Assembly: GCF_003002875.1 (NCBI RefSeq)
Contig: NZ_PVTH01000003.1
Span: forward strand, 1-64,000
DNA length: 64,000 nt
Reading direction: 5' to 3'
Source: Arcticibacter pallidicorallinus
GTDB lineage: Bacteria > Bacteroidota > Bacteroidia > Sphingobacteriales > Sphingobacteriaceae
The notes beneath the pieces were generated by a model. That model ran no database searches. It was not told the DNA's origin and saw only the letters and a list, made by a program, of their open reading frames with translations. Shown here piece after piece: positions 1-52,102 of this stretch. Each line of letters opens with the position of its first letter. Within the stretch, counting starts at the first letter, position 1. The position numbers and the translations under genes were made by a program.

Positions 1-3000
1 GGACAGATCTTGAAGCTGGTTACAGCCGGGCTATAAGAAGTGCCTTCGCTGTTGGTAGCATAAGCACGGACGTAGTAAGTCGGACCTTCGCGAAGACTTC
101 CCAGGATACCTTCAAAAGACCCTATACCGCTACCTGCAGGTACGCATATATCTGAAGTCGTAGGTGTGCCGGTAGTATTAAAACATAGTCCGCGTGATGT
201 AACCAGGGCTCCTCCATCAAGACTAACGGTAGCTGAACCAAGGGCCGTTTGTGGGGTCATCTCTCCAATTACTACATCGCTGACTGAAGGCACGCTCTTT
301 ACAATAGTGTCCCGAACGCAGCGTAAAGGGAAAGCATAAGCCTTATCTGCATAACTAACTGAACTACCGTTAAGCAGGTCCAGAAAATATCCATAACTCG
401 TGCTGCTATACTGGGTGGCAGTCCAATAACGGCCATACACACCGCGACCCTCCAGGGTTCCTCCACCCTGCGTCAGCATTCCCGCCGAGTGAAGTTTCAG
501 CACAGAAGCGTAAGCATTCGCGGCATTCGTCCAGTTTTGAGGTGCAGCATCCGCGGCTATCCACTCTGCCGATGTCGGAATACGCCAACCGAGACCCAGA
601 AGTAAATTACAAGGATCATTATCAGGTTGCCATGACCGATTTTCTGAAATACTCGTAATCCAGGGTGTCCAGGCATTGGACGGTGCGCGAACCCCATTCT
701 CCGATCTATAGCCCTTAGAACGATTGAACTGCCAGTACCAACCGGCTGAAGCTTCTGTTGCGTCGTTTACAGCTGTAGCTTGCTGATCAGCTCCCAAATT
801 CTGGGTTAACCAACAGAGTAGGTTTCCGGATAAATTGGAACTGACATTTCCATAGTTTACTGTTTTACTTACAGGCGCGCCGTTCAATCCGGCAGTATGA
901 ATACTGGTAAATGGTTTACAGATCTTGAAGCTTGTTACCTCTTTGCTGAAAGCTATCCCGACACTATTCGTTGCGTAAGCGCGGATATAATAGGTAGGAC
1001 CTTCGGCAAGGTTCTCGATGGTACCCTCAAAACTTCCCGTTCCACCGGCGGAATCTTGAATGACATTATCCGACAAGGTCGGCATCCCTTTAGTTGCCCA
1101 GACGAAGCCTCTAACGGTAACCTCTGCTCCCCCATCATCAGTAACCTCCACCGTTCCAACAGCTGTAGAATCACTCAGAGAAAGGATCGACACGACACCT
1201 ACTGATGGAACAATGGGTTGCGTTCTAACGGTATCTATATCGCCGTAAGCGGTACCGAGATTGTTCGTCGCATAAGCCCTAATGTAATAGGTGGTAATAT
1301 GCTTGAGGCCTGTTATTGTACTGACGAAAGGTCCGGTTCCAGTGCCATTGGTAGTTTTGGCAGCTAAGGCAACGGTTGGAATATCGGTGCTACTCCAGCA
1401 CACACCTCTGGCGGTTACAGCCAGACCTCCATCCTTCAGAACATCGCCTCCACTCGTCAGTCCTGAGCTTAATATATCGCCGGCTTTAATGGTGATCACT
1501 GTAGGCGTGGTCGGCGTAGTGATACTATCTAAATTACCATAGGCTGTACCCATGGCGTTTGTAGCATAGGCTCTTACATAATAGGTCCTGCCCTGCAGCA
1601 GATTAGTAAGACCAACACTGAAGTTCCCGATGCCACCATTCGCATGGGCTGCTTTTAAGCTATCTAAAGTAGGAGTACCTGAGAGACTGTAGACCACGCC
1701 GCGTGCTGTAACCGGCAGACCTCCGTCTTTGGATATATTCCCGCCTGTAGTGGCTGTATTTTTAGTGATAGCCGTTGCCTTGTTGGTCGTGAGCGAAGGC
1801 AGTGTAGGAGTGGTGACAACAGTAGCAGTTGCACTGAAGCGCGTGCCTGCCGCATTGGTCGCATACGCCCAAACATAATACTTCGTTTCCGGTAACAACC
1901 GGATGATCGTTCCTGCTATCAGTGTTCCATTCTCAGTCACTGACAGCATGCTATCCTGAGGAACAGGATACACCGGACTTTTCCCGGAGGTATTCCAATA
2001 CAGACCCCGGTCTGTCACCGGTGACCCACCTGTGGAAATCACATTAGCGGTACCTTTGGCACTGACCATCGTGAGTTCAGAAAGCTGAACATTGCTTACG
2101 GAGGGCCTGATGATGGTTGTTACCAGACTCTCGAGATTTCCGTATGCCGTACCCTTGCTGTTGATGGCAAAAGCTTTCACATAATACTTAGTTCCGGGAA
2201 GCAAACCCGTCAGGTAATTGGTGTACTCGCCAACACTGCTCACGCTGTTATAGACTTTGGAATTGACGGTTATCGTAAAGTCGGGGGTAGTGCTCCAGCA
2301 GATTCCACGACCCGTAATAGGCATTCCGCCGTCGTCGCTGATATCACCGCCGCTGGTTGCTTTCACGCTATCGATTTCGGTTGGCGTCAGGGTTATAAGA
2401 GTAGGCAGCATTACCTGGTTGGTGGTGAACTGAACCTGACTGCCATATCCCGTGCCTACACCATTCGTTGCATATGCCCTGACGTAATAGGTCGTATTGG
2501 CTGCCAATCCTCTCATCGAAGCAATGAAGCTTCCGATGCTTCCGGAAGAACGATCTTCAGTTTTGGTGGACAGGGACACGTCGGGATTACTGTATCTGCT
2601 CCAGCAAAGTCCTCTAACCAGGATAGCCGTTCTGCCATCGTCCGTAATTTCACCTCCACTTTGAGCTGATGTAGCGAGAATATTGGTAACCGGAGCTGTA
2701 GCCGTAAGGGTTGGAATTCCGTTTGTCTGGAATGTCCTCTCAACCCCGTATGCCGTACCGATCTTATTGATTGCGTAGGCACGGACGTAATAGAGGGTAT
2801 TGGGCTTCAGGCCGGTCAGCAAAGCCGAGAATGCCTCGGTTCCCTCGCCGTTGTAGGTACGACTGTTGCTGATCGTTGGATTGGGTTGAGTGTTCCAGCA
2901 AATACCTTTAAGAGTAACCGGAGCTCCTCCGTCACTTGTAATGACACCACCGCTCTTTGCCGTTAATCCGGCGATATCAGTCAGTTCGTTCGTATTTAAT

Positions 3001-6000
3001 ATCGGAGCTGTAGGAAAAATAGTCACTGCTATTTGATTACCGTAGGCCGTTCCCGCAGCATTTGTAGCATAAGCCCGGATGTAATAGGTCGCGCTCAGCT
3101 CCATATTGGCTACGGTACTGCTAAATGATCCGGTTCCGACGCCGTCTATGGTCTTTGCTACGGTTACCGTATCCGGATCAAAGTCTTCGTCTGTACTCCA
3201 AACAACGCCCCTTTGTGTTATCGCGGCTCCGCCATCTGCACTGATAGTTCCTCCGGTCACCACTGTCGATTTGGAGGTCACTGTGGCATAAGTGGTAGTA
3301 ATGGTTGCCAGCGCAGGTAAGGTGGTGACTTCGACTTCCTCTCCGTAACCGGTTCCCTGGTTGTTGGTGGCATACGCACGGACATAATATTTCGTGACCG
3401 GATTCAGGCCTTGAAGAGAACTGCTAAAAGAGGCACCAGACCACGGATCGTAAGTTGTTTTGCTATGGAGGTTAACAGTCGGTTGAGGACTGGTACTCCA
3501 GCAAACACCCTGATTGTACACAGAGGCCCCGCCGTCATGGATGAGCTTTCCGCCACTGGCTGCAGACTTCCCGTCTGTTCCGGCAACAGTCGTCAATGTA
3601 TTCAGTTTCGGAATGTCGAGCGTAATGAATGTTATCTCATCGCCGTAGCCAGTACCCACGCTGTTGACTGCGTAAGCCCTGACGTAGTAGGTAGTACCCC
3701 GGCTCAAACCAGTCATGCCGGTCGAGAATGATCCGTTTCCTGAACCGACCTGAACTGTTTTATTGTTCACGACCGTATCGGGATTGAAACCGGATACTGT
3801 GCTCCAGACCACGCCCCGCGTGGTGACCGGTTCTCCGCCGTTATCGGTGATGATTCCTCCCGTAGAAGCGCTAAGGCCGTTGATGTTCCAGGCATCCCGG
3901 GTGCTGAGGGTTGGAAGAGTGGCCGGATCTGTGATAAAGCTAAGCAGGTTACCGTAGCTGGTTCCGGCAATGGTTGTTGCAAAGGCACGGATATAATAGG
4001 TTGTGCTTGCTTTCAGGTCAGTCAGCCTGCTCACGAAAACGCCTGCTCCACTGCCACTGCTTAGCTTATTGGCAACGACCGTATCCGGAATAAAATCAAC
4101 TGACAGACTCCAGACCACACCCCTTTGAGTGACATCTGCACCACCGTCATCAGTAATATTTCCGCCGCTATTGGCCTTGGTCGGACCGGTAGCCGTTGTA
4201 TATGCTGTGGATATGGTCGCCAGCGTAGGTGTTCTGAAGCTCATCTCTTCACCAAAAGAAGTTCCTACTCCGTTTACGACGTATGCCTTAACATAGTAGG
4301 TGGTGTTAGGAACCAGCCCGGTAAGATCTGCGGTAAATGTTCCTTTGAAGTAACCGGTCTGAGCGGTTTTATTAATGGTGATCGTATCAGGATTAAAGTT
4401 CCGTTCGGTGCTCCAGTAGATACCTCTTGTCGTGACTGCGGACCCCCCGTGGCTGACAATATTACCTCCGCTGACTGCTGTTACAGAAGATGTTGCGGTT
4501 GGCTTAGTCGTTATTATGGTCGCCAGAACAGGCGCTTTGGTGCTGAAGGTTTCTACATTTCCATAACCTGTTCCTACAGTGTTCGTTGCGTAAGCCCTGA
4601 CATAGTAAAGAGTACTTCCCATAAGCTCTGTAAGCGTAGTGACGAAGCTACCTGAGCCATATCCGTTGGTGGTGTGCTCATCAGCGATGGCCGGCAATGG
4701 ATCTGTGCTCCAGCAAAGACCGCTTTGAATGATATCCGTTCCTCCGTTGGAGATTATCGTACCTCCAGTTTTGACCGAAACGCTGGTAAGGGTAGCAGGG
4801 TCTGGTGTTATGGTAACGATTGAAGGGACATCAAACGTTTTGAACATCACTTCATTACTTGCATACCCTGTACCTACGGAATTGGCAGCATAAGCCCGCA
4901 CATAATAGGTAGTGCCGGGTTTAAGACCTCTGAGGGTTGAGGTGAAATTGGCAGTGCCGGCCTGGACCGTCTTATTGACTACAACCGTGTCGGGTTTGAA
5001 TCCTGAAGCGGTACTCCACACCAGTCCCTCCGTATGAATCAGCGCTCCGCCATCACTTAATATCGTACCGCCTGAAAGTGCGGTGGTTCCCGTCACGCCG
5101 CTTCGGCCCTCCATTGTAGTCAGGGTTGGAATTACCGGCGGACCGGTTACGAATTCTTCCACGTTTCCGTAGGCGACACCAGCGCTGTTAATAGCATAGG
5201 CTCTGACATAATACTTGGTACTTCCGAGAAGCTTCGTCAGACTATGAATGAAATTACCTACGCCTATTCCGCTGGTGGTGCGGGTATCGTTTATGTTCGG
5301 ATCGCCAGTCGTGTTCCAGCATATACCACTTGAAGTAACCGTAGACCCCCCATCGCTTACAATGTCGCCTCCGCTCTTTGCATCTGTAGCGGTGATTGAA
5401 TAGGCAGGAGTGGTGATGATGGTCGGGATGGTAAAGGTCAGGAAGCTGACACTTTCTCCATAGGCCACACCCGCACTGTTGATTGCGTATGCGCGGGCGT
5501 AGTATTTGGTGTTAGGCGTCAGATTCGTCAGCTGGGCAGAATAGCCTCCGGTACCATCGCCTGAAGTTGCTTTGGAATCAAGTATGGTCGGATTGTCGCC
5601 TGTGCTCCAGCAAATCCCACGTTCGGTAACTAATGCTCCTCCATGATTGCTCACCGTTCCTCTTCCAAGGGCTGTCTTTCCGCCGATGTTGATCACGTCC
5701 CGGGTTATAACCAGTGCTGGTTGAGGATCAGCAGTGCTGAAAGATTCCTGATTACCATAGCCCGTACCCACATCGTTTACCGCATACGCGCGAACATAGT
5801 AGGTGGTAGCACCGAGTAGCCCCGTCATCTTGATGGAGAATGTTCCCACACCTGAACCGCTTGACCAATAGGTATCGGCGGTGGTAGGATTAGGACTCGT
5901 ACTCCAACAGATACCTCTGCTATAGACTGTCGAATTACCGTCGTTAGGGATATATCCGCCGCTGACCGCCGTCATATTGGTTATCGAATGAGCAGGCGCA

Positions 6001-9000: not shown

Positions 9001-9017
9001 TGTGATAATTTTCTCAA
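1..9017 (-). CDS. Giant secreted repeat protein with Fn3-like repeats and a FISUMP domain (partial, C-terminus beyond window)
   Basis: The frame is open from position 9017 to the left edge, so at least 3005 residues are encoded and no stop is seen. I chose TTG at 9017: an in-frame stop lies at 9027-9029, no ATG comes earlier, and this start gives a clean signal peptide (MRKLSHIAKIVLFVLFAVL then TASG-QDYF). After it come three short modules of the type G-x-x-YYST...FNGxxW. From about residue 195 to 2710 there are 25 tandem repeats of about 100 residues, each ending in a TTYYVRAYAxN-like strand. A FISUMP-type domain follows at about residues 2710-2905 (LGADQQA, then DNDPCNLLLGLGWRIPTSAEW-like, then LRCV), then another repeat. 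It starts 21 nt after the preceding gene's stop. Export through Sec is likely. Its anchoring or sorting domain is outside the window, so T9SS targeting is unknown. Confidence 0.85.
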   Translation of the reverse strand, partial: MRKLSHIAKIVLFVLFAVLKTASGQDYFRVMDGVPHLPVLDPAAVISPQKGMLVYSSANAEPFIYTGSDWESLCTGNISGTSTHDFFLVKEGIPFLPALNDAPVGILLPGTIYYSTASNAVMIFNGGSWLKVAEMSTATIAQSKGFSAGRDANTCKFPVLDKDPSPNGLSAGALYINSDTRTIKYYDGYNWKSLACRAIVKTLPVEDITSKTALGGGEVLVNGGSPVTLTGLCWNTNPNPDIFLPTTTQFPATGSGIGTFQSAITALMPNTTYYVRAYAINGQGVVYGEDVVFKTPVSTPEIITLPAIHITSISAESGGSITADGGSPVTKRGIIWSSITDPLNVPTHTSTDDGSGVGPFPSTLEGLLGNTTYYIRAYAVNVVGIAYGNLVEFTTPAPVPPVLNPSLSITDITGDSATGSALIINNGGAIVTEKGVCYSKDQINYIYVPSATATPTDIGAFTTLLSGLEPGTTYYAKAYATNSAGTGYSSETSFITAALATITTIKPYDYSGTTALSGGTISNTGFSVISKRGICWSTDRDPTIALPTTTSEPLGSNGSGAFTSTMKELLPGTTYYVRAYAVNSAGVSYGNLDSLHVPDLATVHTVAASSLYQTTATVGGHVSADGGASVTERGVCWSTAENPTIANSRSAQGSGLGWFSAVLKGLTSNVTYHFRAYAVNKAGVSYGEDLTFKIVPEAPVIITLNVTEITSMSALSGGDITSSGGASITLRGIIWGTAGDPITDPNANIVSNDGSGVGYFPSKMEHLLGNTTYYVRAYAVNSYGKSYGDLKIFQTLPPILPSVLPPAFEIASITNTSASGTFLVVNNGGAPVTDRGIRYSKDRKNYIYVSSTTLNKTDIGTFLASLTGLTPNSTYYAQAYATNEVGTAISAEASFRTSSLAVLTTTPPSYVTGFSAYSGGDITSTGDDVISAKGVCWSTERIPTVDLETRTSEPVNGIGTGTFVSRLRDLTPGTTYYIRAYAVNSFGTAYGNLDSLTTASTAEITTAPAHSITNMTAVSGGYIPNDGNSTVYSRGICWSTSPNPTTADTYWSSGSGVGTFSIKMTGLLGATTYYVRAYAVNDVGTGYGNQESFSTADPQPALVITRDVINIGGKTALGRGTVSNHGGALVTERGICWSTGDNPTILDSKATSGDGTGGYSAQLTNLTPNTKYYARAYAINSAGVAYGESVSFLTFTIPTIITTPAYSITATDAKSGGDIVSDGGSTVTSSGICWNTTGDPNINDTRTTSGIGVGNFIHSLTKLLGSTKYYVRAYAINSAGVAYGNVEEFVTGPPVIPTLTTMEGRSGVTGTTALSGGTILSDGGALIHTEGLVWSTASGFKPDTVVVNKTVQAGTANFTSTLRGLKPGTTYYVRAYAANSVGTGYASNEVMFKTFDVPSIVTITPDPATLTSVSVKTGGTIISNGGTDIIQSGLCWSTDPLPAIADEHTTNGYGSGSFVTTLTELMGSTLYYVRAYATNTVGTGYGNVETFSTKAPVLATIITTKPTATSSVTAVSGGNIVSHGGSAVTTRGIYWSTERNFNPDTITINKTAQTGYFKGTFTADLTGLVPNTTYYVKAYVVNGVGTSFGEEMSFRTPTLATISTAYTTATGPTKANSGGNITDDGGADVTQRGVVWSLSVDFIPDTVVANKLSSGSGAGVFVSRLTDLKASTTYYIRAFATTIAGTSYGNLLSFITDPATLPTLSTRDAWNINGLSASTGGIITDNGGEPVTTRGVVWSTVSGFNPDTVVNNKTVQVGSGNGSFSTGMTGLSRGTTYYVRAYAVNSVGTGYGDEITFITLDIPKLNTLTTVAGTDGKSAASGGKLIHDGGASVYNQGVCWSTSPQPTVNLHSKTTYDPWSGASFSSSLQGLNPVTKYYVRAYATNNQGTGYGEEVEVTTLPALATITTTYATVTSKSTVVTGGTISADGGAAITQRGVVWSTDEDFDPDTVTVAKTIDGVGTGSFSSTVANMELSATYYIRAYATNAAGTAYGNQIAVTIFPTAPILNTNELTDIAGLTAKSGGVITSDGGAPVTLKGICWNTQPNPTISNSRTYNGEGTEAFSALLTGLKPNTLYYVRAYAINKIGTAYGVERTFQTNGIPTLTATAPVTNILATSAQSGGEITDDGRTAILVRGLCWSRYSNPDVSLSTKTEDRSSGSIGSFIASMRGLAANTTYYVRAYATNGVGTGYGSQVQFTTNQVMLPTLITLTPTEIDSVKATSGGDISDDGGMPITGRGICWSTTPDFTITVNSKVYNSVSSVGEYTNYLTGLLPGTKYYVKAFAINSKGTAYGNLESLVTTIIRPSVSNVQLSELTMVSAKGTANVISTGGSPVTDRGLYWNTSGKSPVYPVPQDSMLSVTENGTLIAGTIIRLLPETKYYVWAYATNAAGTRFSATATVVTTPTLPSLTTNKATAITKNTATTGGNISKDGGLPVTARGVVYSLSGTPTLDSLKAAHANGGIGNFSVGLTNLLQGRTYYVRAYATNAMGTAYGNLDSITTPTTPTVITIKAGDILSSGLTSGGDVLKDGGLAVTARGVCWSSTDIPTVALAAKTTNGTGTGPFVSTITGLKHITTYYIRAYATNNLGTAYGDIDTVRTQPIVPSVGVVSILSLSDSTAVGTVEVTDDGGAEVTVRGFVWATKGMPTLSDNVIQDSAGGTGSFEGTIENLAEGPTYYIRAYATNSVGIAFSKEVTSFKICKPFTSIHTAGLNGAPVSKTVNYGNVSSNLSGNLLCWLTQNLGADQQATAVNDATEASAGWYWQFNRSKGYRSENGVRAPSNAWTPWITSISENRSWQPDNDPCNLLLGLGWRIPTSAEWIAADAAPQNWTNAANAYASVLKLHSAGMLTQGGGTLEGRGVYGRYWTATQYSSTSYGYFLDLLNGSSVSYADKAYAFPLRCVRDTIVKSVPSVSDVVIGEMTPQTALGSATVSLDGGALVTSRGLCFNTTGTPTTSDICVPAGSGIGSFEGILGSLREGPTYYVRAYATNSEGTSYSPAVTSFKIC
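890..8430 (-). repeat. 25 tandem ~300-bp protein-coding repeats
   Basis: The conserved YYVRAYA-coding segment recurs about every 300 bp from near 8182 down to near 973 (24 intervals averaging about 300 bp). Each unit encodes an Fn3-like fold with a shared pattern: SGGxI, then DGGxxVTxRGxCWST, then GxGxFxSxLxxL, then TTYYVRAYAxN, then YG. DNA copies are clearly diverged, but the frame is kept at every unit checked. Units 3 and 7 (near 7560 and 6360) share an aberrant YSKDxxNYIYV segment in place of CWST. Confidence 0.85.
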
Positions 9018-9038
9018 TACCGTTGCTCAAATACCATC

Positions 9039-12000
9039 TTACTTCATCTTGTCAAGTATCAAATCGATCTGCCGCTGCTGGCTTTCAATTCTATCTTTCA
9101 GGTCGTTGATTTCCGTTTGCTGATTCTTCAAAAGCACGTGCTGCTCTTTAACGGCCTGAATCAGGAGGCCGGAGAGCTGTGTATAGTCCACTTTCAAAAA
9201 GCCATCGCTATCCCGGGTGACCATTTCAGGGAAAAGTTTTTGAAGTTCCTGTGCGATCAGCCCTATCTTAGGACCGCTTGCGAAGCGTTTCTGATCCTTA
9301 TATTCGAAGCGGACGCCGCGCATCTGATCAATAGCTTGCAGTGCATTTGCAAGGGTTTCTATTTTGGTTTTCAGTTTTCGATCTGAGGGTGTATAAAGGT
9401 TACCTCTCACAGTAAGATCCTGAGCGAGAACTGCGCTACCTGTTGATTCAAAGCTGAGACCGCGATTTGCGGCACCGTCGCTGCTGATCGAATAAGATAA
9501 AGTTTTAATGTTTTGCGTTGCTGTGTGGTTACCGAGGTGATCGCCTGGGATAGTAATGTTTGAGGACCCGTCGAACGGAATTCCATTTATAGTAATGGCA
9601 TTGGTTAGCTTGGTGGCCGCCAGTACCGTCTTAGAAGCGTCGGCGGTGTTATCAACATTATTCAGGGCCAGCATTGCTTTTACCTGCGCAGGGCTTAAGG
9701 ACTGTGCGGCAGATTCAACCGCAGAGTTATTTCCGAGCAGGGTATTTGGAGCCACTTTATTGATACCTGACGCATCCAGTTTGGTGTCTACGTAATTCTT
9801 TGTGGCTGCATCCTGATCTGCGGAAGGGTTTGCCAGGTTGATAATTTTGTAATTATTGCTACCACTCCCCATGGATATGTTTGCCTCAGCATCACCAAAT
9901 CCGCTTAAGGTAATAGCACTCTTCGCTGTAGACGACGCTTTTCCGTTTGCGTCGCCTACCAGCATATTCCCTCTGGGAAGAGAGAGAGTAGTATTGATAT
10001 TAGCAAGCAGGCTGTCGACGTATCTTTTATTTACTGCATCGCGTTCTGCTGTGGGAGTTGCGAGGTTTATTATTTTATAGTTTTCGAGGGGCAAATCTTT
10101 GGTGGGCTTGCCGAAGTCCGTTAAGGGTATGGAAGTTTTCTGAGCAGCAGCGGCCCTATTGCTGGCATCTCCTACAAAAAGCTGCCCCATAGGTAAAGCG
10201 TTATCAACAGGTACCCATTGATTGCCATCAAAAACATAGAACACCTTTTCAGTAGTATTGTAATAGGTACTGCCCGCTGTAGGATTTAACGGCGGGGTGG
10301 TCCCTCCGGGGATAGTGCCCGACTTACTGTCAACATACTTTTTAGTGGCTGCGTCCTGGTCGCTTGACGGATCCTGAAGTCCGGTTAACTTATGATTTGA
10401 AAAACTGATATCAGTTTCTGGTGCGCCAAAGCCGCTAAGAAGAATGGTGTTCTTAGCGACTCCCACAGCTTTTCCGGAAGCATTACCGACAAACAATTGG
10501 CCCGTAGGCAATGAGAGCTGGGAGGTAATTCCCGACAGTTGTGCGGCAAGATATTTTTTATTGACAGCATCCTGATCTTGAGTGGGATCTGCGAGGTTGG
10601 TAAGTTTGTAATTAGATAGCGACAGATTTTCTATGACAGCTCCGAATCGGCTTAACGAGACGTTTCCTATGGATATCGCTTCAGCGATATTAGCCGGACT
10701 TCCCAGCAGGATATGATCCGCTGACAAAGATATAGATGAGGGGTTACTCACCTTCTGATCTACGTAATTCTTTGTAGCTGCATCCTTTGGCTGCAACGGT
10801 TCGGCGAGATTACTGATATTGAACTGGCTGGATGCGTCTCCCATAAATACTGTTTCGGTCGCTTTTCCAAAACCACTTAGGGGTATTGCACTTTTCAGAC
10901 TGGGCGCGGCTTTTCCGTAAGTATTTCCGACAAAGAAGTTACCCGCAGGGAGGGCAAGCGTGTTGACAGGGTTTAAAAGCAGGTCATCCACATATTTTTT
11001 AGTGGAGGCATCGCTATCGGTAAGGGGCGCGGCCAGATTAGTAATCTTGTGATTTCCCATAGAAATCTCCGTTGCTGCGGGGCCGAAACCGCTTAGCGGA
11101 ATATCTGCTTTTGCTGTCGACACTGCCTTTCCTGAAGCATTACCGACAAACAATTGGCCCGATGAAAGGGCAAGATTGGTCGGAGCAAACACCTTATTGT
11201 CTACATAGTTTTTTGTGGCGGCATCCTGGAGTGCTGCAGGTTCTGCGAGGTTGGTAATCTTAAAACCACCAAGAGACACCTCTGCGATAGCCGCACCAAA
11301 CTCACTAAAAGCAATGTCCTTCTTTTCTACCATTCCGGCCTGTCCCTGATCGTTTCCCATCAATAGCATGTTACGATAGAGGCTGATGTTAATGGGATAA
11401 ACCGGTCGGGTATCTACATACAACTTATTAGCGGCATCGCCGTCATTGGAAGGACTAGCCAAACCAGTGATCAGCTTATTGTTCATGGCGATATTAGTAG
11501 CAGGAAGCCCGAAACCACTTAGCGGGATAGCACTTTTCAGGGTTGCTACTGCTTTATTAGATGCGTTTCCGACGAAGAAATTTCCTGAGGGGAGGGTAAG
11601 GAGACTTGTGGGGTTAAGGAAGAGCACATCTACGTAAGACTTGGTGACGGCATCCTGTGCTGCTGATGGATTTGCCAGGTTGACGATCTTATAGTTGGTT
11701 GTTCCGTCGCCGAGGGATACATGATCCGTTGGTGTTGCGAAACCGCTTAATGGTATATTTTCTTTATCTAATTTTTCGTCTGATATTGCTTTCGCTTTCA
11801 CCGTAAGCTTGCCGCTGTTGGTTATGGTGGCATCGCCCGACATGCTTACTGCCGCCGCGACGTTGGATGGGTTTCCGACGAAGATCTGGCCGCTGGAGAG
11901 GGCATTGCCTACCGGCATCCAGGTGCTGCCATTATAGACATAGAGCTGTTTTTCTGTTGTATTGTAGAAAAGGCGACCTTCGGTTATGGGTGCACTAGCA

Positions 12001-12974: not shown

Positions 12975-12980
12975 AGGAAA

Positions 12981-18900: not shown

Positions 18901-19322
18901 GCCGGCCAGGCATTAGACTGTTTCGGGCCAAACAGCATATGAGTGGTGGTATTGATATAGAAGTCGCCATTTGATCCGACGGTGGAAGCCGGATTCGTTG
19001 TACCACTCAACATCGCGTTACCCGTGGCCCCTCCTCCAGTAGTTAACTCTGTATTCTTAACCAGTCGCTGCCATCCGTTATCGTAAAAATAGAATCCTGC
19101 AGATCCGTCTGTCTGGTAGACAAGTAAACCTGTAGCAGGGCTGTTTATTCCGCTGCGCTGGGAAGCTGTTATTCTGGGTATCAACACCCCTTTAGATGTT
19201 GATGCTACGTCTAACTGGGCGCTTTGGTCTGGGGTTAGCGTGCCTATTCCTACCTGAGCATTCGATTTTAATGCGACGAAAACGATGATAAGTACGCCTA
19301 AATACTTGACGAATTTATTCAT
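12981..19322 (-). CDS. Giant fibre-like repeat surface protein
   Basis: 2113 residues from the ATG at 19322, chosen because it begins a clean signal peptide ([23 protein letters not shown]). A longer frame from 19439 would overlap the preceding gene by 59 nt. The N-terminus has the Bacteroidota motif [17 protein letters not shown], then GVLIPRIT and GLLVYQTDG. Most of the protein is low-complexity, Gly/Thr/Ser-rich and beta-prone: STILGN, SGDVTG, NTGDQ, LGNVxNxDQTNA and GGTGATT motifs recur, as in phage fibre proteins. Two LSGF...DAATKKYVD units match those of the downstream 1311-residue protein. The last ~150 residues are a non-repetitive domain I do not recognise. Function is inferred only: a surface fibre or adhesin. 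Confidence 0.83.
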
Positions 19323-19380
19323 GAGGGAATGTTTATGGTTTATTGGTTTAGCTGGCATGGTATATATTCTTGAACGGGGT

Positions 19381-20409
19381 TTAGTAAAAATCATAGCATC
19401 TTCGGCTGTCGCTTCGGCGTCTTGCTCCTGAAGCACCATTCGATCTGCCCGGGAATGTGGTTTCGTAACTTAATGCAGCTTCTGAAGTGCCTGATGTGTT
19501 TCCATACTGCATTTTAGACAGGGTTGCATCGTGACTAAGACCGAGTCGAACTTTATCATACATATCTTTTCTGATGAACAAATCGAAGATGAGAGAAACA
19601 ACAAGGGCATCCCGACCTCCTTTTGAATCACTGCGATACCAGAGTCCTACATTTGCTCCTTTATATTTGTACTGGCATCCCGCACTGATGAGGTTGGCAT
19701 TTGCCTGATTATAAACTACCAGCGAGGGAATAAGACTCGAACCATCATCGTCTCCATATGGATTTAATGGCAGACGATAACTCGCATGGGCATTAAGACG
19801 AACGGGCAATGTTGATTTTGAACCGGTGAAGGACTCATTAGGCCTGTTTATATGCTGTGCCGACAGTCCTGACATGAAATTGCCTACCACCAGGTTGACG
19901 CCTGCTCCGGCATCGAAAAAGTATTTGTTATTATATTCTGGAAGGGTTGCATCGGATACCGCACCTGGAATGATTCCATCGATCGCATCAATCTGATCGC
20001 CAAAAACAATTTTACCGTAATCTATTTCCCGCTGAGTAAAGCCGGCTTGTAGACCGAAAGAAAGGACTGCATTATCAAAGTCAACGCTGTAAGAATAAAT
20101 TCCCGAGATATTAAGCTTGCGGAGGTAGGCTGTTCCTTCATTTGAGCTGGTAACCAGCAAGCCCAGACCGCCGTTTAAGGCTGGCATATTATAGTCGGCT
20201 GAAAAAGTCAGATAGTTTTGATTGCCGGGAAGGGCACTCCACTGATTCCTGTACACCAGATTCATTCTCAGGTCACCATCAAACTGGCCGTTTAAGGCCG
20301 GATTCAAATAATTGGGGGCGTTATAGAATTGCGAATAAATATGATCCTGCGCCTGTGAATTAAGTGCAAACAGCAGTGAAAAGATTATATATAGTAGCTT
20401 TTGTTTCAT
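19381..20409 (-). CDS. PorP/SprF family type IX secretion outer-membrane protein
   Basis: 342 residues. The signal peptide (ends NSQA) is followed by the family's opening pattern [21 protein letters not shown], then beta-barrel-like alternation. The C-terminus is Arg-rich and ends RRCYDFY, similar to the basic tails of PorP/SprF proteins. Members of this family partner with T9SS substrates that carry type-B C-terminal domains. In Flavobacterium johnsoniae sprF lies directly after the adhesin gene sprB. Here it starts 3 nt after the stop of a 2792-residue type-B substrate, so I infer that it serves that protein. Whether it also helps the three downstream giants is open. Confidence 0.87.
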
Positions 20410-20412
20410 ATC

Positions 20413-23400
20413 CTAGCGTATCAGATTTATAGAACCGACTGTACGTCTCGGCCCGGTTTTATATTTCATCCCTTTCCATTCAGATCCTTCTATGAACCTG
20501 GCTTCGATTCTCCAGACATAAACACCTTGAGGTGCAGGTGAACCCCCAATATTTCCGTCCCATCCTTCCGTTGGAGTTCCCTGATCGTCCAGCTTATCTG
20601 TTTGCCAAATAAGCTGTCCCCATTTATTGAAGACCTTCAGTGAGTAGGTTGCTATTCCGGATCCCTTAGGGAGAAATGTCTTTAGATCCTGCTTCATGTT
20701 TGCTGGCTCAAATCCGCTGGGGACGTAGAGATAGCCGGGCACGCCCTCTATGCGGGCTACCTTTCTCAGGGTATCGGCACATCCGGCTTCGGTGGTCACG
20801 ATCAAACTAACCGTATATTCTCCCGGTTCTCTGTAGGTATGTGAGGGGCTTTCTTCTGAAGATATCGAGCCGTCGCCAAGATCCCATTCATAGCGCTTGG
20901 GTTTTCCTTCACTGGTGTTTTTAAACGAAAAAGTGAAGTCCGGAACTTTGATAACATCATTCGGTAGGATTTCAAAGTTTGCAACCGGTGGCTGTGACAC
21001 GGTGATGTATTGAGTTTGGACGGTTACGTCGTAACATCCAAACTCTCCGTAGGCCGTAAGCTTGACGTTATAAGGTGATTTCTCAGAAGTGTATCGATGC
21101 GTTGGATTCTTTTCTGTAGAAAACGTTCCGTCCCCAAAATCCCAGAGATAGCAACTTGCATTAATGGAGAGATTTTCGAAGGTCACACCCGTGAGAGAAC
21201 AACCCTTCTGAACATCCGATGTAAAAGCGGCCTGTGGCAGGGCTGAGATCCTTATGGTACGCTTGAATACGTCACTGCATTGACCGTCGAAAGCAGTAAG
21301 CCGCAAGTAATAGGTGCCGGGTTTACCATAGATGTGCGCCGGTGAAGGATCTGTACTTAGCGGACTTCCATCGCCGAAATCCCACTGGTACCGGATTGCT
21401 CGTTCGCTTAGGTTCTTAGGTTTGACTTCCAGCTTCCCGTTACAACTCAGGCTGTCTGTAATCGTAAAATATGCCTCGGGTTTTGGATGTGTTCTCAGGA
21501 TCTTATCAGTGGTATCCACCTTACATCCGTAAGTATTGGAAACGATAAGTCTTACCGAATAAGTTGTATCCTGAAGACTGGCAACGATAGTAGAAGGTTC
21601 TTTTTCGTTGGAAACAAGTTTCCCATTAAGATACCAGAGGAAACTGTCTGCATGTTCTGAAGTATTTTTGATATCAAGCGTTAAAGGAGCACAGCCGGGA
21701 TTGGACTTCAACTCAAACCGAGCTACCGGTAGTGGATTATGCCTTATTACAACCTCGGTAGTATCAGAACATCCCAAAATATTCACGGCCACCAATTTTA
21801 CTTTCGACACATAAGGCATCGATGAGCCGGCCGGTACAACAAAGCGATGGCTTAAGTTCTCCTGTGTCGAGATTGGCTTATCGTTAACTATCCATTTATA
21901 GGTAAGGGCTTCGGCACCGTCACCCGTTGATTTGTTAGTGAAGAGGATGGTCCCGGAAGTGCCGCATATTAAGGTGTCGGAAGCACTAAACGCTGCCGTA
22001 GGTTTCCCGACAACTTTAATTGTCCTCACCATGCTATCGATACATCCGGATTCATTATAGGCGAACTCAGTTACTTTATAGATTCCGGGCTTCGTGTAAA
22101 TATGCTCTGCATTATAACCCGAGGCATTGTTATAGGGACTTTGAATGTCACCAAAGTTCCAACGTACGGTTGCTGCGTTTGAAGGTGTGGTAGTAACCTG
22201 CAGTTTGAACGGTACGCAATTCAGATTTGCGGAATTGCTTGTGAACAGCGCAACGGGAAGGGCTAATATTTTCACTTGCTGGCTGGAAACATTACTGCAG
22301 ACGCTTCCGTCCGGATGAGACTGCAGGACTGTAAGCTTTACATTGTAGACTCCTTCGTTTAAAAATGTATGCTTGGGATTCGCCTCATTGCTTTTCGTTC
22401 CATCTCCAAAGTCCCAGGCATACGTGCTGGACGGAGTAGGTTGCGATTGAAACGTGACAGGATCATTTTTACAATATTGCTGACTGTCGAATGTGAACCT
22501 TGCATCTGGCACAGGATAGACGGTTATGGTTTCAGTTGTCACACCAGATGAACACCCGTTCGTCGCCAGCAAACTTACCTCGTAAACTCCGGGCTCTAGG
22601 AAAGTATGATCCAGGAATGCGGGCGATGTCGTTGTCGTCGTTTGACTTCCGTCCTTAAAGTCCCAATGGAAACGATTTGCTCCCAGAGAATTGTTATTGA
22701 ACCTGACAGTGAAAGGAGCGCAACCAAACTTACGGTTCCCATCGACAACCAGCTCTGGTGTAACGGTATTTGGATAAACAACAATATTATGACTGGTGGT
22801 ATCCGTTCCGCATTCATTCTCTGCAAGTAATGTTACTACGATGGTGTCTGTCTTTGTTACATAGAATGTATGCGTTAAAGAGGTATTATCGGTCGTTACT
22901 ACCTTATCGCCGTCTCCGAAATCAAAAGTGTATTTGTTGGGGCCTCCTGCCGATTGATTGCTGAAATTTACGGTGAGAGGCGAGCAGCCTACCACAACGT
23001 CTGGGGAGAATACCGCTTTTGGTTGGGGACGTACAAGCACGGAATCGCGGTATTCTGTTGTCTCGCATCCGGAGTTGGCCCTAAGTGTGATAATATAAGT
23101 GGTGTCGCGATGTGCCGGATGGGGTTGAAATACGATTGCTCCTGGCTGAGCTTCGGTTGAAGTTTGCCCGTTTCCAAAATCCCATATATAATTTCCTCCT
23201 GCAATTGGTGTGGAGGTGTTTGTAAAACTCACGCTTAGAGGTCCACAGTCCTGAACTTTGTCTTTCGTAAAGGAAGCAACAACATTTTTGACGGTGTAAA
23301 ACTCTTTCTCCAGGATGTCCTGCCCACATCCAAACTTACTTTTTGCGATTAGCTTGATGATGACTTTTTCGCCGTCCCTAACAATCGTATATCCGGGAAA

Positions 23401-26400
23401 CTCTCTTCCCCTGCCTATCAGGACATCATCTGCATACCATTCAAAGTCGCCGTTGCGGTCTTCATATGGCTCCAGCATTATCGCCTTCTTCAAATCAAAC
23501 GGAGTACATGAAATATAGGTGGTCGAAGAAAACTCGGCTTTAGCCAAAGGGTTAATAAGGATGCGTACAGGCTCACTAACGTTTTTTTGGGCGCCTTTAC
23601 ACAAAGCGGTAGTTACAATTCTTCTATACCAGGATGTATGCGTTAGAACAGGAGGAGCATAGTCTTTTTTTATTTCATCTGGAAGATCTGTCCAATCAGA
23701 TCCGTTTTCACTGATTTGCCATTGAAAAAAGAAATTACCGTCGCCTCCGGTAGGAATCGTTCCTGCGATTACCGCAGAGGCTTCACCTAAGCACAGAACC
23801 TGATCTTGTGAGATGGAGTTATTAGCCACAGCTGGCTGCACCGTGATTTTTACAGAATTGCTGACGGATGAACATGGTCCTGATGTTATTTTCCGCCTTA
23901 AGTAAGAGGTGGCAGTAAAAACATTCGTGTAATCTTTCAGAACTGCAGCAGTCAGTAACGTCCAGTTTATTTCATCTGTACTGACCTCCCACGAGTATTG
24001 ATAAGTCCCATTTCCCCCACTAAGTTGGTCGTTGAACAGTTGCACGTGCTGTCCGGAACACACTGTAGTCGTTCCTGTAATGGCATTCACAATAGCTGGG
24101 TAATTGAAAATTCTTACTTCGGCTATACTCGGATCACAGATACCGTTGGAGATACTCCACCTGAATACATATTCACCCGGTGATGCACCGCTGACCGTAG
24201 TCCGATAACCGGATGGATCATCAAGCCGGCATACTGGGCCGCTCACCTGAGTCCATGATCCGAGGCCTTTTTCAGCTTGGTTAGCGGTTAGAGAAAATTC
24301 AGTTTCATTGCATAGATACTGATCTGCTCCTACTTTGGCGATTGTTACGTTCGGAAGCACTTCTATCAGGAATTCCGAGGAACGGACCTCATCGCAAGTA
24401 CCATTCCTGACTACTGCCCTAAACCGGCTGGTCTGTTGCGGAATGTGATTAGTGAGTTCTTCAGAAGAGACGTTTAAAGGAGTCCAGTCTCCTCCATCGG
24501 TTGACACCTCCCATCTAACTATGCTCCCCCTATGTCCGCTAACCTTTAGACGTACGGCATCCCCAATACAAACTCTCGATTTGGCACTTGTGATTTCGCC
24601 ACCTATCGAAGGTTCATCAACTGTTATCTTTACTCCTTCAGTAAAAACGAATGTTTGGCACCCTCCGCCCTGAGTAATCTTTACTCTGTACCATGTTGTG
24701 CTGGCCAAAGCCGGTGCGGAATAGTCTGACAGAGTGACGCCCGGAAGATCATCGTAGCTTTTTCCATCCGTTGATATCTGCCATTGAAGAATATCGGCCG
24801 GAGAGTAACCGGAAAGCTTTAACAGTCCAGGTGAACTCCCCTTGCAAATAGAAAGAGCAACTGGATGGATCGTTCCTAAGGTTGGATAATCTACTACTGA
24901 AATGATCAGTTGGGCACTGCTCGTCTTGCATGACGCGTCGGCTGAGCTGGCGTCACTGGAGATGTTCCACTCGAGCTTGTAAACACCACCTTTAAGGTTA
25001 CTTACCTTTGTCTTCGCCTGATTTGCATCTTCGAAGATTAGTCCCTCTGGACCCGATAACAACTTCCAGAAACCCTTCTCTCCGTTCGATATATCAGGCA
25101 GGTTCCCGGTTAGAACAGTATGGTTATTTGAGTTGTCTTTAAGGATACAGATTTCCTGCTTTTCACCTACGGTTGCTTGGGTAACAGGTTTGCGAACGGT
25201 GAGGGTTACCGCTGATCTCTCATCGGGACATGGGCTGACGCCAGAAATAACCCATTCCAATACATACGTTTTACCGGCCACAAGGTTACTCACCGTAGCG
25301 TTATGCGCATGGTTATCCGGAGAAAATGAAAGCTTGCTCAGCGGGTCAGAATCCCTCCATGTTCCTGTGAAATGTCCGGCATCATTTGCGTTCAGCTTAT
25401 ATGAGGTTTCATTACACAATATCTGACTTTCTCCGGCTTTGGATTCTGGAGTCGGGTCGTTGACGACGATCTCTATTTCCGGACTTACCACTTCACATTT
25501 TCCATGGCTTTTAGCTATACGGCGGTACTTGGTTGTTGCGATTGGAAATACTTCTATGTTTTCTTTTGTACCGTTGACTACAGGTGTCCAGACGCCCATA
25601 GTGCCGACTAACTGTTCCCATCTGAACGTATACTTAGCCGAATGAACACTGCTTGCTCCTCCAGTTAATAATGCTGTCGTTAGTTTCACAGCTTCGTTTT
25701 TACATGATATCAGTCTGTCGGCCTTTATCGTGTTTTGGATCGCTGAGATAACTTCAATGGAAATTTTATCAGGTTCACTACGACATATACCATTGGATAT
25801 TTCCCAGGTAAACTCATAATGGGCGCCGGTTTGTAATCCAGCTATTGTAGCGTCGTGCCTGTTTGCATCATCAAACGAAACCGTGGGACCAGCAGTTTGC
25901 TTCCATAACCCAGAGCCAACTTCAGGTCTGTTGCCCTTTAGCGTAAATGTTGTCGTGCCTTCACACAAGATTTCATTCTCACCTGCATAGGGTTCAGTAG
26001 GCAACGGGAGAATCTGAACACTTGTAACCGACGACGACGCTTCAGAGCAAGATCCACTTTTGACTATCGCACGAAATTGTGTCGTGAACTTAAGTTTACT
26101 ATAGCTATAACTTGTTGCAGTCGACTGAATCAGATTCCATGTATGCCCGTCGTCTGTTGAGCTTTCCCATCTCACAACATTCCCGGTGTGACCGGTCAAA
26201 TCTATCTTTCCACTTTCAGAAGTTACGCAGTAGGTGGCTGCTCCGGATGTAGTACCACCCTTTGTTTCCGGATCGACATCTACAACAAATATCTCAGATT
26301 TAACTACAGAGGAACATCCGGCAGCTTGACCCAAGCTGGCCACATTTACTCTGAAAAACGTCTTTTTACTTATAGGGAGGAAAGCGTATTCTTCCAAGGT

Positions 26401-28791
26401 ATGGGATATTCCTGTCCAGGTGATTTGGTCTGTTGACGATTCCCAGCTCAGGATCTTTCCCGAATAATCAGTTAACTTCAACGTTCCTCCATTGCCAACA
26501 CAAACACTTTGACTACCCGATAATTGTCCGCCTACAGGTTTTGCATAGACTTCTAAGGTCATATCATCAAACTCATCGCAACCGGCATCATTACTTATTG
26601 TCCACCGCAAATGGTAAGTGCCAGGAATAAGGCCAGAGATAATGGCGTTGGGACTTGCTTCTCCACTAATGAACGCATTTGGAGGACCGTCTACTACGCT
26701 CCACCTTCCGGACTCTTGAGGTTGAGGTGTATTTCCCTTCAGTTGGAAGGTTGTCTGGTGCTCTCCCGGAATATTATCGCAGACAAAAGCATCCGCACCT
26801 GCGTCTTTAATAATCGGTCCATAAAGGGTGACCATTCTTGTCTCAGTAACCGGATGGTCGCATTCGCTATTGTAAGTTACACTCACCCTATAAACTCCGG
26901 AAGCATTAAAGGAGATAATCGGAAAAGGATCAGACGCTCCATGTTCCTCGAAATGATAATCGCCGCCGCTGACTTCCCACTTGTAAATTTTATTTTTCGC
27001 GAACCCCGTATAGGTCGGTTTGAGGTTTTTGTCTTCGGCAAAATTGACGATGACCGGATAATCGCGGCAATACTTCGGATTGATATCAGGCAAAGCAACA
27101 GTTAAGGGGCCGGCCACGGTAAACGGCTTTTCAAGGATAAGAGTCTTGCAAGAATTGGTCGATTCAAGACGAAGTAAATAGTCTCCTGGAACAGAAATCT
27201 CAATACCTGGATGCAAATCTTCCCGTGACCCTAAAAATTTGACGCCGTCTAAAACTTCTGTTCCCGTTGCAGCGTCCATAATCTTCCAGAGCCAGGCAAT
27301 GCCACATGATCCCTTCACTTTAGTTTTATTTTCTAAGGACATCCTCACGGGGCTGGATCCGGATAGATAACAATCGGCTGACTGCGTAAAGCTAAAGTCA
27401 AGCTCAGGATCAGCCTCAATGCATATGTCTGAAATCTTTTCGGAGGGAGGGCAGCTATTATTGCTTGCAACAAGCTTTACACTGTACACGCCGACTTCTT
27501 TAAAACGATATGAGAGGTTAGTTTCGTCAGAAATTAATTTCCAGGAACTTTCTGGTTCAGATTTTTTCTTTACATACCACAGATAAGAGGTGTAGTCTGT
27601 ACAAGCTGTACCTTCGGAATTCTCGGACATTCCTGGAATAGTTTCGTTTATAATAGTAACAGGTTCGTTCAAACAGCCGCGTCCTCCGGATATATCAAAA
27701 CTTGCAACAGGAGCGCTGAAAACTTTTGAATACGTTTGTATTGGAAAGCTAGCCCCTGTACAGAAGGGAGCATTGACAGATATGCTCACCTGATAGGCGT
27801 TATAGACTGGCTGATTAGGGTTAGCGACTGGTTGATTACAAGATGGTTTACTGTACTTATGGCTGGCAATTCCGTTTAAGGCAATTAGTTCGCTCTGACT
27901 GATCAGATCTATATTGCCATCGCCCCAGTCGAATTGATACGCCAATCCGGGGTAGTTTGTTAAAATGCTTCCCTTATTAGATGAGGACGGGATACCTATA
28001 TTCATGGAAAACTTAACGGATCCCGTATCTTCGGCATCCGCGTTTGAAATACACGCCGTCTGTGCACCCTCTGACTGCAGGCTATTGTTATTAGTCGAAC
28101 TCAAGATGACGTAGCTTTTTGTTGAGACTACCCCTTCTCTTTCAGACCTAAATGTTGCGGTGTAATAGCTGTCTTTCAGTTTAAGTGTCTGGAGATTTGA
28201 TTCCTCAAAATCAAACTGTAGATTTGGCGTGCCGGTATTATAATCGTCCTTTAATACACCGGAGAGACTCGCATTTGGAGCTGTTGAGTTTCTAACTACA
28301 AGTTCCTGATAATCTTTGCCTTTATCCTTGATATTCGAGCAAAAGCCCCATATCTGATCTACCACCAAAACTCTACTATTATCTGATGGGGCGACATGAA
28401 TGACAGGGGCTACCCCTCCGACAATTTTTATGGGCGTATTGAGTACTTTATGTGGGATATCCCCTGAGTTCTTAACCTCAATTTTTAATCTATAAAAACC
28501 ACTTAATATGCCCTCGGGAATCTTTCCGTTTACAAACGTTGCAAAATGACTTTTAAATACTCCGATCGGATCTGACGCAATAAAATTTCCATCCCTATCA
28601 GACAGATATAACTCGAACACACATCCCTTCTTAAAACTTCCACTTAAACTAATAGGCACAGAGATGTCACTCCCTGGCCCATAAGGACCAGAATCCACCT
28701 CTCCTATCGTTATAACCTGAGCGGTGGCTGAAAAACTTATTAGAATTAATAAAAAAACAAATAGTCGGTTTAAGAAGAATTTCCTATACAT
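20413..28791 (-). CDS. Giant Ig/PKD-repeat adhesin with T9SS type-B sorting domain (SprB-like)
   Basis: 2792 residues. Signal peptide at 1-25 (ends FSATAQ). Residues of about 650-1780 hold two alternating Ig-like module types: one with RWESSTDxGxxW, the other with AGxxxxLC, LKGNxP and EWxISNGxC. From about 1840 to 2690 there are about ten PKD domains (WDFGDG cores, C-P-L-T-V-x-F openings, HTF / GxYxVxL ends). The last ~100 residues are a variant type-B C-terminal domain: LYVPSGFEP, FLPKGSG, LKVFNKWGQLIWQT, GWDGNIGG, PQGVYVWRIEA and a terminal INLIR. Type-B domains direct export by T9SS with a PorP/SprF partner, and that partner is encoded next. SprB-like gliding adhesin is the best analogy, but other surface roles are possible. 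Confidence 0.9.
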   Translation of the reverse strand: MYRKFFLNRLFVFLLILISFSATAQVITIGEVDSGPYGPGSDISVPISLSGSFKKGCVFELYLSDRDGNFIASDPIGVFKSHFATFVNGKIPEGILSGFYRLKIEVKNSGDIPHKVLNTPIKIVGGVAPVIHVAPSDNSRVLVVDQIWGFCSNIKDKGKDYQELVVRNSTAPNASLSGVLKDDYNTGTPNLQFDFEESNLQTLKLKDSYYTATFRSEREGVVSTKSYVILSSTNNNSLQSEGAQTACISNADAEDTGSVKFSMNIGIPSSSNKGSILTNYPGLAYQFDWGDGNIDLISQSELIALNGIASHKYSKPSCNQPVANPNQPVYNAYQVSISVNAPFCTGASFPIQTYSKVFSAPVASFDISGGRGCLNEPVTIINETIPGMSENSEGTACTDYTSYLWYVKKKSEPESSWKLISDETNLSYRFKEVGVYSVKLVASNNSCPPSEKISDICIEADPELDFSFTQSADCYLSGSSPVRMSLENKTKVKGSCGIAWLWKIMDAATGTEVLDGVKFLGSREDLHPGIEISVPGDYLLRLESTNSCKTLILEKPFTVAGPLTVALPDINPKYCRDYPVIVNFAEDKNLKPTYTGFAKNKIYKWEVSGGDYHFEEHGASDPFPIISFNASGVYRVSVTYNSECDHPVTETRMVTLYGPIIKDAGADAFVCDNIPGEHQTTFQLKGNTPQPQESGRWSVVDGPPNAFISGEASPNAIISGLIPGTYHLRWTISNDAGCDEFDDMTLEVYAKPVGGQLSGSQSVCVGNGGTLKLTDYSGKILSWESSTDQITWTGISHTLEEYAFLPISKKTFFRVNVASLGQAAGCSSVVKSEIFVVDVDPETKGGTTSGAATYCVTSESGKIDLTGHTGNVVRWESSTDDGHTWNLIQSTATSYSYSKLKFTTQFRAIVKSGSCSEASSSVTSVQILPLPTEPYAGENEILCEGTTTFTLKGNRPEVGSGLWKQTAGPTVSFDDANRHDATIAGLQTGAHYEFTWEISNGICRSEPDKISIEVISAIQNTIKADRLISCKNEAVKLTTALLTGGASSVHSAKYTFRWEQLVGTMGVWTPVVNGTKENIEVFPIATTKYRRIAKSHGKCEVVSPEIEIVVNDPTPESKAGESQILCNETSYKLNANDAGHFTGTWRDSDPLSKLSFSPDNHAHNATVSNLVAGKTYVLEWVISGVSPCPDERSAVTLTVRKPVTQATVGEKQEICILKDNSNNHTVLTGNLPDISNGEKGFWKLLSGPEGLIFEDANQAKTKVSNLKGGVYKLEWNISSDASSADASCKTSSAQLIISVVDYPTLGTIHPVALSICKGSSPGLLKLSGYSPADILQWQISTDGKSYDDLPGVTLSDYSAPALASTTWYRVKITQGGGCQTFVFTEGVKITVDEPSIGGEITSAKSRVCIGDAVRLKVSGHRGSIVRWEVSTDGGDWTPLNVSSEELTNHIPQQTSRFRAVVRNGTCDEVRSSEFLIEVLPNVTIAKVGADQYLCNETEFSLTANQAEKGLGSWTQVSGPVCRLDDPSGYRTTVSGASPGEYVFRWSISNGICDPSIAEVRIFNYPAIVNAITGTTTVCSGQHVQLFNDQLSGGNGTYQYSWEVSTDEINWTLLTAAVLKDYTNVFTATSYLRRKITSGPCSSVSNSVKITVQPAVANNSISQDQVLCLGEASAVIAGTIPTGGDGNFFFQWQISENGSDWTDLPDEIKKDYAPPVLTHTSWYRRIVTTALCKGAQKNVSEPVRILINPLAKAEFSSTTYISCTPFDLKKAIMLEPYEDRNGDFEWYADDVLIGRGREFPGYTIVRDGEKVIIKLIAKSKFGCGQDILEKEFYTVKNVVASFTKDKVQDCGPLSVSFTNTSTPIAGGNYIWDFGNGQTSTEAQPGAIVFQPHPAHRDTTYIITLRANSGCETTEYRDSVLVRPQPKAVFSPDVVVGCSPLTVNFSNQSAGGPNKYTFDFGDGDKVVTTDNTSLTHTFYVTKTDTIVVTLLAENECGTDTTSHNIVVYPNTVTPELVVDGNRKFGCAPFTVRFNNNSLGANRFHWDFKDGSQTTTTTSPAFLDHTFLEPGVYEVSLLATNGCSSGVTTETITVYPVPDARFTFDSQQYCKNDPVTFQSQPTPSSTYAWDFGDGTKSNEANPKHTFLNEGVYNVKLTVLQSHPDGSVCSNVSSQQVKILALPVALFTSNSANLNCVPFKLQVTTTPSNAATVRWNFGDIQSPYNNASGYNAEHIYTKPGIYKVTEFAYNESGCIDSMVRTIKVVGKPTAAFSASDTLICGTSGTILFTNKSTGDGAEALTYKWIVNDKPISTQENLSHRFVVPAGSSMPYVSKVKLVAVNILGCSDTTEVVIRHNPLPVARFELKSNPGCAPLTLDIKNTSEHADSFLWYLNGKLVSNEKEPSTIVASLQDTTYSVRLIVSNTYGCKVDTTDKILRTHPKPEAYFTITDSLSCNGKLEVKPKNLSERAIRYQWDFGDGSPLSTDPSPAHIYGKPGTYYLRLTAFDGQCSDVFKRTIRISALPQAAFTSDVQKGCSLTGVTFENLSINASCYLWDFGDGTFSTEKNPTHRYTSEKSPYNVKLTAYGEFGCYDVTVQTQYITVSQPPVANFEILPNDVIKVPDFTFSFKNTSEGKPKRYEWDLGDGSISSEESPSHTYREPGEYTVSLIVTTEAGCADTLRKVARIEGVPGYLYVPSGFEPANMKQDLKTFLPKGSGIATYSLKVFNKWGQLIWQTDKLDDQGTPTEGWDGNIGGSPAPQGVYVWRIEARFIEGSEWKGMKYKTGPRRTVGSINLIR

Positions 28792-49689: not shown

Positions 49690-49695
49690 CTCAAT

Positions 49696-51219: not shown

Positions 51220-51256
51220 CTATTTGATTCTTGTATTGATACTGTCCATCATTAAC

Positions 51257-52075: not shown

Positions 52076-52102
52076 CTTAAATATAATTTTTTGATTTTTT
52101 AA

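Follow-up and report, generated by a model that had tools for sequence, protein, structure and literature searches.

The T9SS is thought to export proteins through their own C-terminal tails. In the SprB/SprF pair of F. johnsoniae, as described in PMC12635249 and PMC9143113, a very large repeat adhesin is directly followed by its PorP/SprF carrier. The C-terminal tail of SprF contains a Cys-Xaa-Cys motif that is disulfide-bonded to Cys343 of GldK, a residue invariant across GldK/PorK, and PorG of P. gingivalis makes the same kind of bond with one Cys (PMC12635249). According to PMC9143113 and PMC12618676, each type-B substrate is retained by its own cognate carrier of the PorP/SprF family. The locus described here combines a pair resembling SprB/SprF (module A) with a set of fibre-like genes accompanied by a small type-B substrate and a second carrier (module B). 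The component parts are already known; for their linkage, full-text searches of the open-access literature listed no paper on this gene set.

The window, which is the whole stretch of 64,000 nt analysed, comprises bases 1-64000 of contig C3 in a 23-contig assembly (G000). Its first 28,791 nt hold five ORFs, all on the minus strand, with consecutive gaps of 3, 58, 6 and 21 nt, and an ORF recount bore out this arrangement as given in the first-pass annotation. The Pfam-type families among them are PKD_4, PorP_SprF, Peptidase_S74 and Fn3-type repeats. Module A consists of a PKD/Ig-like giant with PKD_4 (P0001, 20413..28791, 2792 aa, 61 Cys) and SprF1 (19381..20409, 342 aa), a PorP/SprF-family outer-membrane carrier. 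Module B begins with P0003 (12981..19322), a tail-fibre-like protein with a Sec signal, no CTD and a GIGT head domain at 19050..19253; its length of 2113 aa is counted from the ATG at 19322, the longest ORF there being 2152 aa. The next fibre, P0004 (9039..12974, 1311 aa), contains T7-tail-fibre-like repeats and a C-terminal Pfam Peptidase_S74 domain (9219..9386), an intramolecular chaperone of the endosialidase type. The last ORF, gene 5 (P0005, 3..9017), encodes an Fn3-like repeat/FISUMP giant of at least 3005 aa and runs off the contig; base 1 is the contig end, and gene 5 is therefore cut there. Gene 5 opens with TTG (9015-9017), and the printed orthologous ORFs likewise open with a Leu-read start codon. 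The G+C content is 0.44-0.52 across the operon (window 1-28000) versus 0.39-0.47 in most of the remaining window.

Of 28 terminator-like sites (19.3 expected, s.d. 4.8), none falls within the four operon gaps, which lends weak support to one transcript. Sigma-70-like promoters occur at chance level (33 found, 31.6 expected). The Bacteroidota promoter pattern gave three window matches (1.59 expected), and within the operon the minus strand has none of these.

The operon continues on contig C13 of the same assembly. An open frame at the end of this contig overlaps the window end exactly over 29 bases and stays in frame. C3 and C13 probably join at this repeat-rich end, a junction backed by the uninterrupted loci of G002 and, with a gene 5 of 107 aa, of G003. 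On C13, all on the minus strand, the end of gene 5 (P0009, 100460-102013) carries FISUMP (TIGR02145 43.3 bits) and is followed by three further genes, encoding the redoxin P0008 (99007-100491, 494 aa; AhpC-TSA, ResA/TlpA-like), the mini type-B protein P0007 (97762-99003, 413 aa) and a second PorP/SprF, SprF2 (P0006, 96793-97740). The first-pass annotation described five surface proteins arranged around a single PorP/SprF. All five genes are confirmed, but the unit is longer and also includes, on C13, another PorP/SprF and another, clearer type-B substrate; the appearance of a single carrier arises because the window edge hides the other one.

In G002, a two-contig genome of the same genus, the whole gene order is unbroken over 44.9 kb, with products of 2784, 339, 1902, 2005, 6287 (gene 5), 477, 429, 329 (an IS982 transposase) and 336 aa. 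The IS982-type transposase gene (G002:C2:46089-47078; L083 14290-15279) lies between the mini type-B gene and SprF2. G003 shows the same order on one contig, with the PKD giant cut by the contig end and a gene 5 of only 107 aa. This short gene (L044 16381-16704) retains the signal and the first head beside an intact redoxin gene, representing either a true loss or an assembly collapse. G001, G004 and G005 show the same order as far as their contigs extend. The conservation of this order in five other same-genus genomes, contig reach permitting, is more than chance. Outside the genus, the order splits into the two modules, so that a search of relatives for the gene order, as suggested in the first-pass annotation, sustains the full arrangement at genus level only.

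By its sequence, module A is a SprB/SprF-like T9SS adhesin-carrier pair with a putative role in gliding. The SprF-type carrier lies directly 3' of the PKD giant at a gap of 3 nt (TIGR03519 171.6 bits; PF11751 150.4 bits). The giant had been taken for a type-B T9SS substrate; a divergent type-B-like C-terminal tail was indeed detected (20500..20649, minus strand), but it scores below the curated cut-offs (21.1 versus 35 bits for TIGR04131, 26.7 versus 27 bits for CHU_C of Pfam). The type-B-like tail is conserved ahead of SprF1 in relatives. In a sample of 23 SprF1-clade loci, of which six represent the operon, a P0001-like (PKD-like) partner was found at 15 of the 17 loci outside the operon (one partner on a second contig), and the head profile detected no head-domain fibre gene among the 407 ORFs in the fetched stretches of these non-operon loci. 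The pair of PKD giant and SprF1 occurs without fibres in seven genera besides that of the window. Compared with SprB, the giant is unrelated in detail, its type-B tail is below cut-off, and extra fibre genes lie downstream here.

Like SprF of F. johnsoniae, SprF1 possesses a cysteine in the C-terminal tail, but it has a single one, five residues from the end (CYDFY, 19384..19398, minus strand), whereas close homologues of SprF are described as invariably having Cys-Xaa-Cys (PMC12635249). The SprF1 C-terminus reads C(Y/S)(D/N)FY in all 23 clade members and exactly CYDFY in 21, and no Cys is present among the last 40 residues of SprF2 in 12 of 12 distinct sequences. The window's GldK retains the GC..NFKPG cysteine found in PorK, which, judging by length, probably occupies the Cys343 position. 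By analogy with F. johnsoniae, the C-terminal Cys of SprF1 may disulfide-link the carrier to GldK of the gliding/T9SS track. Given the Cys in the SprF1 tail and its absence from the SprF2 tail, it may be that only the former of the two carriers is anchored to the track. Cysteines number 61 in P0001 and 24 in P0005, mostly one per repeat, against three in P0003 and one in P0004.

The genes gldK, gldL, gldM, gldN and porW/sprE are located in the same window as the operon (48817-53419 and 42076-44724), and the best GldJ match scores 346 bits, under its cut-off of 458. The operon and gldK share a contig in G000 only; they are on different contigs in the two-contig G002 and in the drafts G001, G004 and G005, and G003 gave no match at 1e-50. 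This proximity was discarded as incidental, being unseen in other same-genus genomes.

Module B comprises the two tail-fibre-like proteins, the mini type-B protein and SprF2, usually together with the repeat giant and the redoxin. In G201, G231 and G273 of genus g14, it occurs in the order P0003-P0004-[P0008]-P0007-P0006 with no adjoining PKD/SprF1 pair; the giant is placed after SprF2 in G231 and is broken in G273. Five more g14 loci agree: G741 and G660 are arranged as G231, and G681 as G201 (without redoxin and giant), the absence of module A in these three being judged within 10-kb stretches; in G775 and G675 the giant precedes the redoxin as in the window's genus, and fibre genes, if any, lie beyond the 10 kb fetched. 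The G675 locus (L200) has two giants, one ahead of the redoxin and the other after SprF2. Family-wide, strong orthologues are rare (P0008 in 8 and P0004 in 9 of 251 genomes), the other matches being general redoxins (245/251 at E 0.001) for P0008 and S74 ends for P0004. Since a second genus has the fibre genes without module A, always together with P0007 and SprF2, the conserved partners of the fibres, by gene content, are the mini type-B protein and SprF2 and not the PKD protein.

P0007 has a type-B CTD above cut-off (TIGR04131 72 versus 35 bits), and the adjacent P0006 is likewise a clear PorP/SprF (TIGR03519 165.5 versus 90.55 bits). The two form a substrate-carrier pair like that of the PG1035-PorP-PorE complexes (PMC9143113, PMC12618676), and export of P0007 is predicted to depend on SprF2. 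Unlike in those complexes, no PorE gene was seen in the fibre module, and the substrate is a small protein encoded alongside Sec-only fibres. The third PorP of G000 (C6; L081 7414-10483) has as neighbours a PorE-like OmpA protein and a type-B protein of 836 aa, which together with it are likely a static T9SS anchor set.

The N-terminal domain of P0007, here called ELNGN, spans about 133 aa and has no Pfam or NCBIfam match. As a single-sequence query against 295 genomes, it found only G325 besides its own genome. An alignment-based profile reached further and finds T9SS substrates elsewhere in Bacteroidia, matching in 9 of 395 class genomes and, within the family, in 38 of 399 genomes (42 matches). 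Eighteen loci were fetched, namely all eight outside the seeds at class level and 10 of the 32 family matches new to the sample. At 16 of these 18 loci, which are partly independent as L196-L200 are orthologous loci of one genus and the heads of L188-L191 seeded the head profile, a gene for a fibre or giant is found no more than two genes away and on the same strand (12 detected by the head profile, three by Pfam fibre domains and one by BLAST). At class level, a head-domain gene adjoins on the same strand in six of eight loci (L188, L189, L190, L191, L192 and L195; L188 and L189 are paralogues in one genome, G488), and in L194 an S74 gene lies one gene away. In the family, the association holds for 9 of 10 loci (L196-L204). 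Besides the S74 gene of L194, Pfam detected BclA_C in L201 and a YadA head plus S74 in L202, and the giant of L198 was recognized by BLAST. No fibre is present near the ELNGN gene in L193 and L205. In G325, outside the 18 loci, the linkage was seen in two of two cases, one fibre having a BclA_C tail.

As a control, head genes numbered one among 267 ORFs of 18 PorP loci and none among 407 and 65 ORFs in two family locus sets; the lone control gene, in L177, belongs to a run of collagen fibre, 244-aa type-B protein and PorP. ELNGN proteins carry a type-B T9SS tail in G000, in genus g14 and in G743 and G026; those tested from distant loci (L168, L188 and L195) carry a type-A tail. The ELNGN-fibre linkage thus outlasts, as judged from these tails, a change of T9SS tail type, and SprF is not obligatory because the distant proteins end in type-A tails. 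In most Sphingobacteriaceae loci seen, the small T9SS substrate has its own SprF beside it.

A head profile matched P0003 at 102.9 bits, P0004 (head-like motifs) at 40.7 bits and, weakly, P0005 at 24.1 bits, with no match in any other operon protein; the search covered nine sequences, so that bits and not E-values are to be read. The profile also picks up the giants of G741, G660 and G675. P0003 is 56-62% identical to eight orthologues over its first 150 aa and 25-32% over its last 170 aa, which is the sequence pattern of a fibre whose base is conserved and whose tip varies. In P0004, the last 170 aa show 54-67% identity to orthologues, and the C-terminal Peptidase_S74 (59.7 bits, cut-off 22) is predicted to trimerise and cleave itself. 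Single-sequence structure prediction of the P0003 tip was unusable (mean pLDDT 34.6). No T9SS tail (TIGR04131 or TIGR04183) was found in P0003, P0004 or the gene 5 end P0009, and the seven head proteins tested have no T9SS tail. The distal domains of head proteins at these loci match the Pfam families of phage S74 fibres, BclA_C, YadA heads and collagen-type trimeric fibres; unlike those fibres, head proteins are bacterial and Sec-exported, share a head domain of Bacteroidota and are accompanied by a T9SS partner. Similarly, the giant ends in FISUMP as FISUMP (Fib_succ_major) surface proteins do, but has at least 20 Fn3-like repeats ahead of it and a linked redoxin.

S74 occurs in 97 of 149 Bacteroidia genomes; an in-house S74 profile that also matched sorting tails was left out of the counts. 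A general S74-PorP association was rejected, as PorP was present in 2 of 40 sampled S74 loci, approximately the chance expected from PorP density. Three loci, L144 and L154 from the S74 sample and L177 from the PorP sample, combine a fibre, a small or mid-size type-B protein and a PorP in one co-directional run. In L144 (3874-15012, G390), a type-B protein of 867 aa, a collagen-like S74 fibre of 1361 aa, a type-B protein of 249 aa and a PorP of 311 aa form one run that ends with a 900-aa protein, PorE-like by eye.

In 14 module loci, redoxin and giant are both intact in ten (G000, G001, G002, G004, G005, G231, G741, G660, G775 and G675, some of these giants running off a contig or stretch), both broken in G273, both missing from G201 and G681, and discordant in G003, with its 107-aa gene 5 and intact redoxin. 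The G273 locus (L109 13809-17851) contains a truncated redoxin and the giant in pieces. A distant cluster, L188 of G488, encodes an ELNGN protein, a head protein, a head+FISUMP protein and, 500 nt from the latter, a redoxin whose homology to P0008 extends for about 400 aa (21% identity, E 6e-11). No redoxin appears among the genes printed for L189, the other cluster of G488.

On balance, we lean towards a composite surface operon, in which module A is an adhesin-carrier pair and module B would display fibres via a small T9SS-exported docking protein. The gene linkage is observed in the genomes, whereas the mechanism is inferred. As with other type-B substrates and their PorP/SprF carriers, P0007 would be exported through the T9SS and then retained by SprF2, with the type-A route used in other cases. 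Its ELNGN domain would dock the heads of trimeric fibres outside the cell, or carry the fibres out, and the Sec-exported fibres would be displayed with their variable distal domains pointing outward. The redoxin, gained and lost with the Fn3/FISUMP giant, would handle the cysteines of that protein. The first-pass annotation suggested instead that the fibres and the PKD protein may together make up one cell-surface appendage around a single SprF. It rightly recognized Sec signals and a fibre-like surface look in the downstream proteins, and the run is co-directional, nearly gapless and genus-conserved. These features would also suit a single machine in which the PKD giant, the fibres and the repeat giant are subunits served by SprF1. 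We consider this quite unlikely, because each module occurs without the other, the PKD+SprF1 pair standing alone at many loci and the fibre genes elsewhere without it, and because SprF2 and a second type-B substrate lie within the operon. Scattering of orthologues over unrelated loci, which the first-pass annotation named as evidence against a common unit, is seen between modules A and B and is absent inside the fibre module.

The lack of T9SS tails on the fibres can also be read in other ways. Module B may be a variable adhesin locus that shares only expression with its neighbours, the fibres surfacing by a non-T9SS route and the ELNGN linkage reflecting joint regulation; S74 and head genes are indeed common in Bacteroidia, most of them away from PorP. 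However, the fibre-ELNGN linkage recurs in distant families, and we regard this explanation as unlikely. A Sec signal without a sorting tail would equally suit envelope proteins, with P0003, P0004 and P0005 remaining in the periplasm or inner leaflet. This is very unlikely, since variable C-terminal ends against a conserved head fit surface tips better and the partners bear T9SS tails. T7-tail-like repeats and S74, together with matches of P0004 to 781 of 50,697 phage records, raise the case of a prophage or tailocin remnant, whose structural genes the fibre genes would be. Yet the best phage matches span only the S74 end (approximately residues 1001-1293), none of the 781 covers 80% of the protein, and Sec-signal-bearing products are encoded between T9SS genes in two genera. 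A phage origin is extremely unlikely and was rejected, phage matches being confined to the S74 end in the best ones.

Beyond the composite operon that we favour here, a wider proposal is more tentative, and we hold it at somewhat less than even chance. Bacteroidia may possess an undescribed, class-wide form of fibre display, in which a T9SS-exported ELNGN adaptor, its tail being type A or type B, would dock or escort trimeric Sec-only fibres that share the head domain and have interchangeable distal domains (S74, BclA_C, YadA head, collagen or FISUMP). FISUMP giants that bear cysteines would have a dedicated redoxin, and the genus of the window would have fused this system into one operon behind a SprB/SprF-like pair. 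If tail-less trimeric fibres do reach the surface via a small tailed partner, they would constitute a class of T9SS clients that is invisible to tail-based prediction. Many Bacteroidota genes annotated as tail fibre or FISUMP would then gain a testable place and role.
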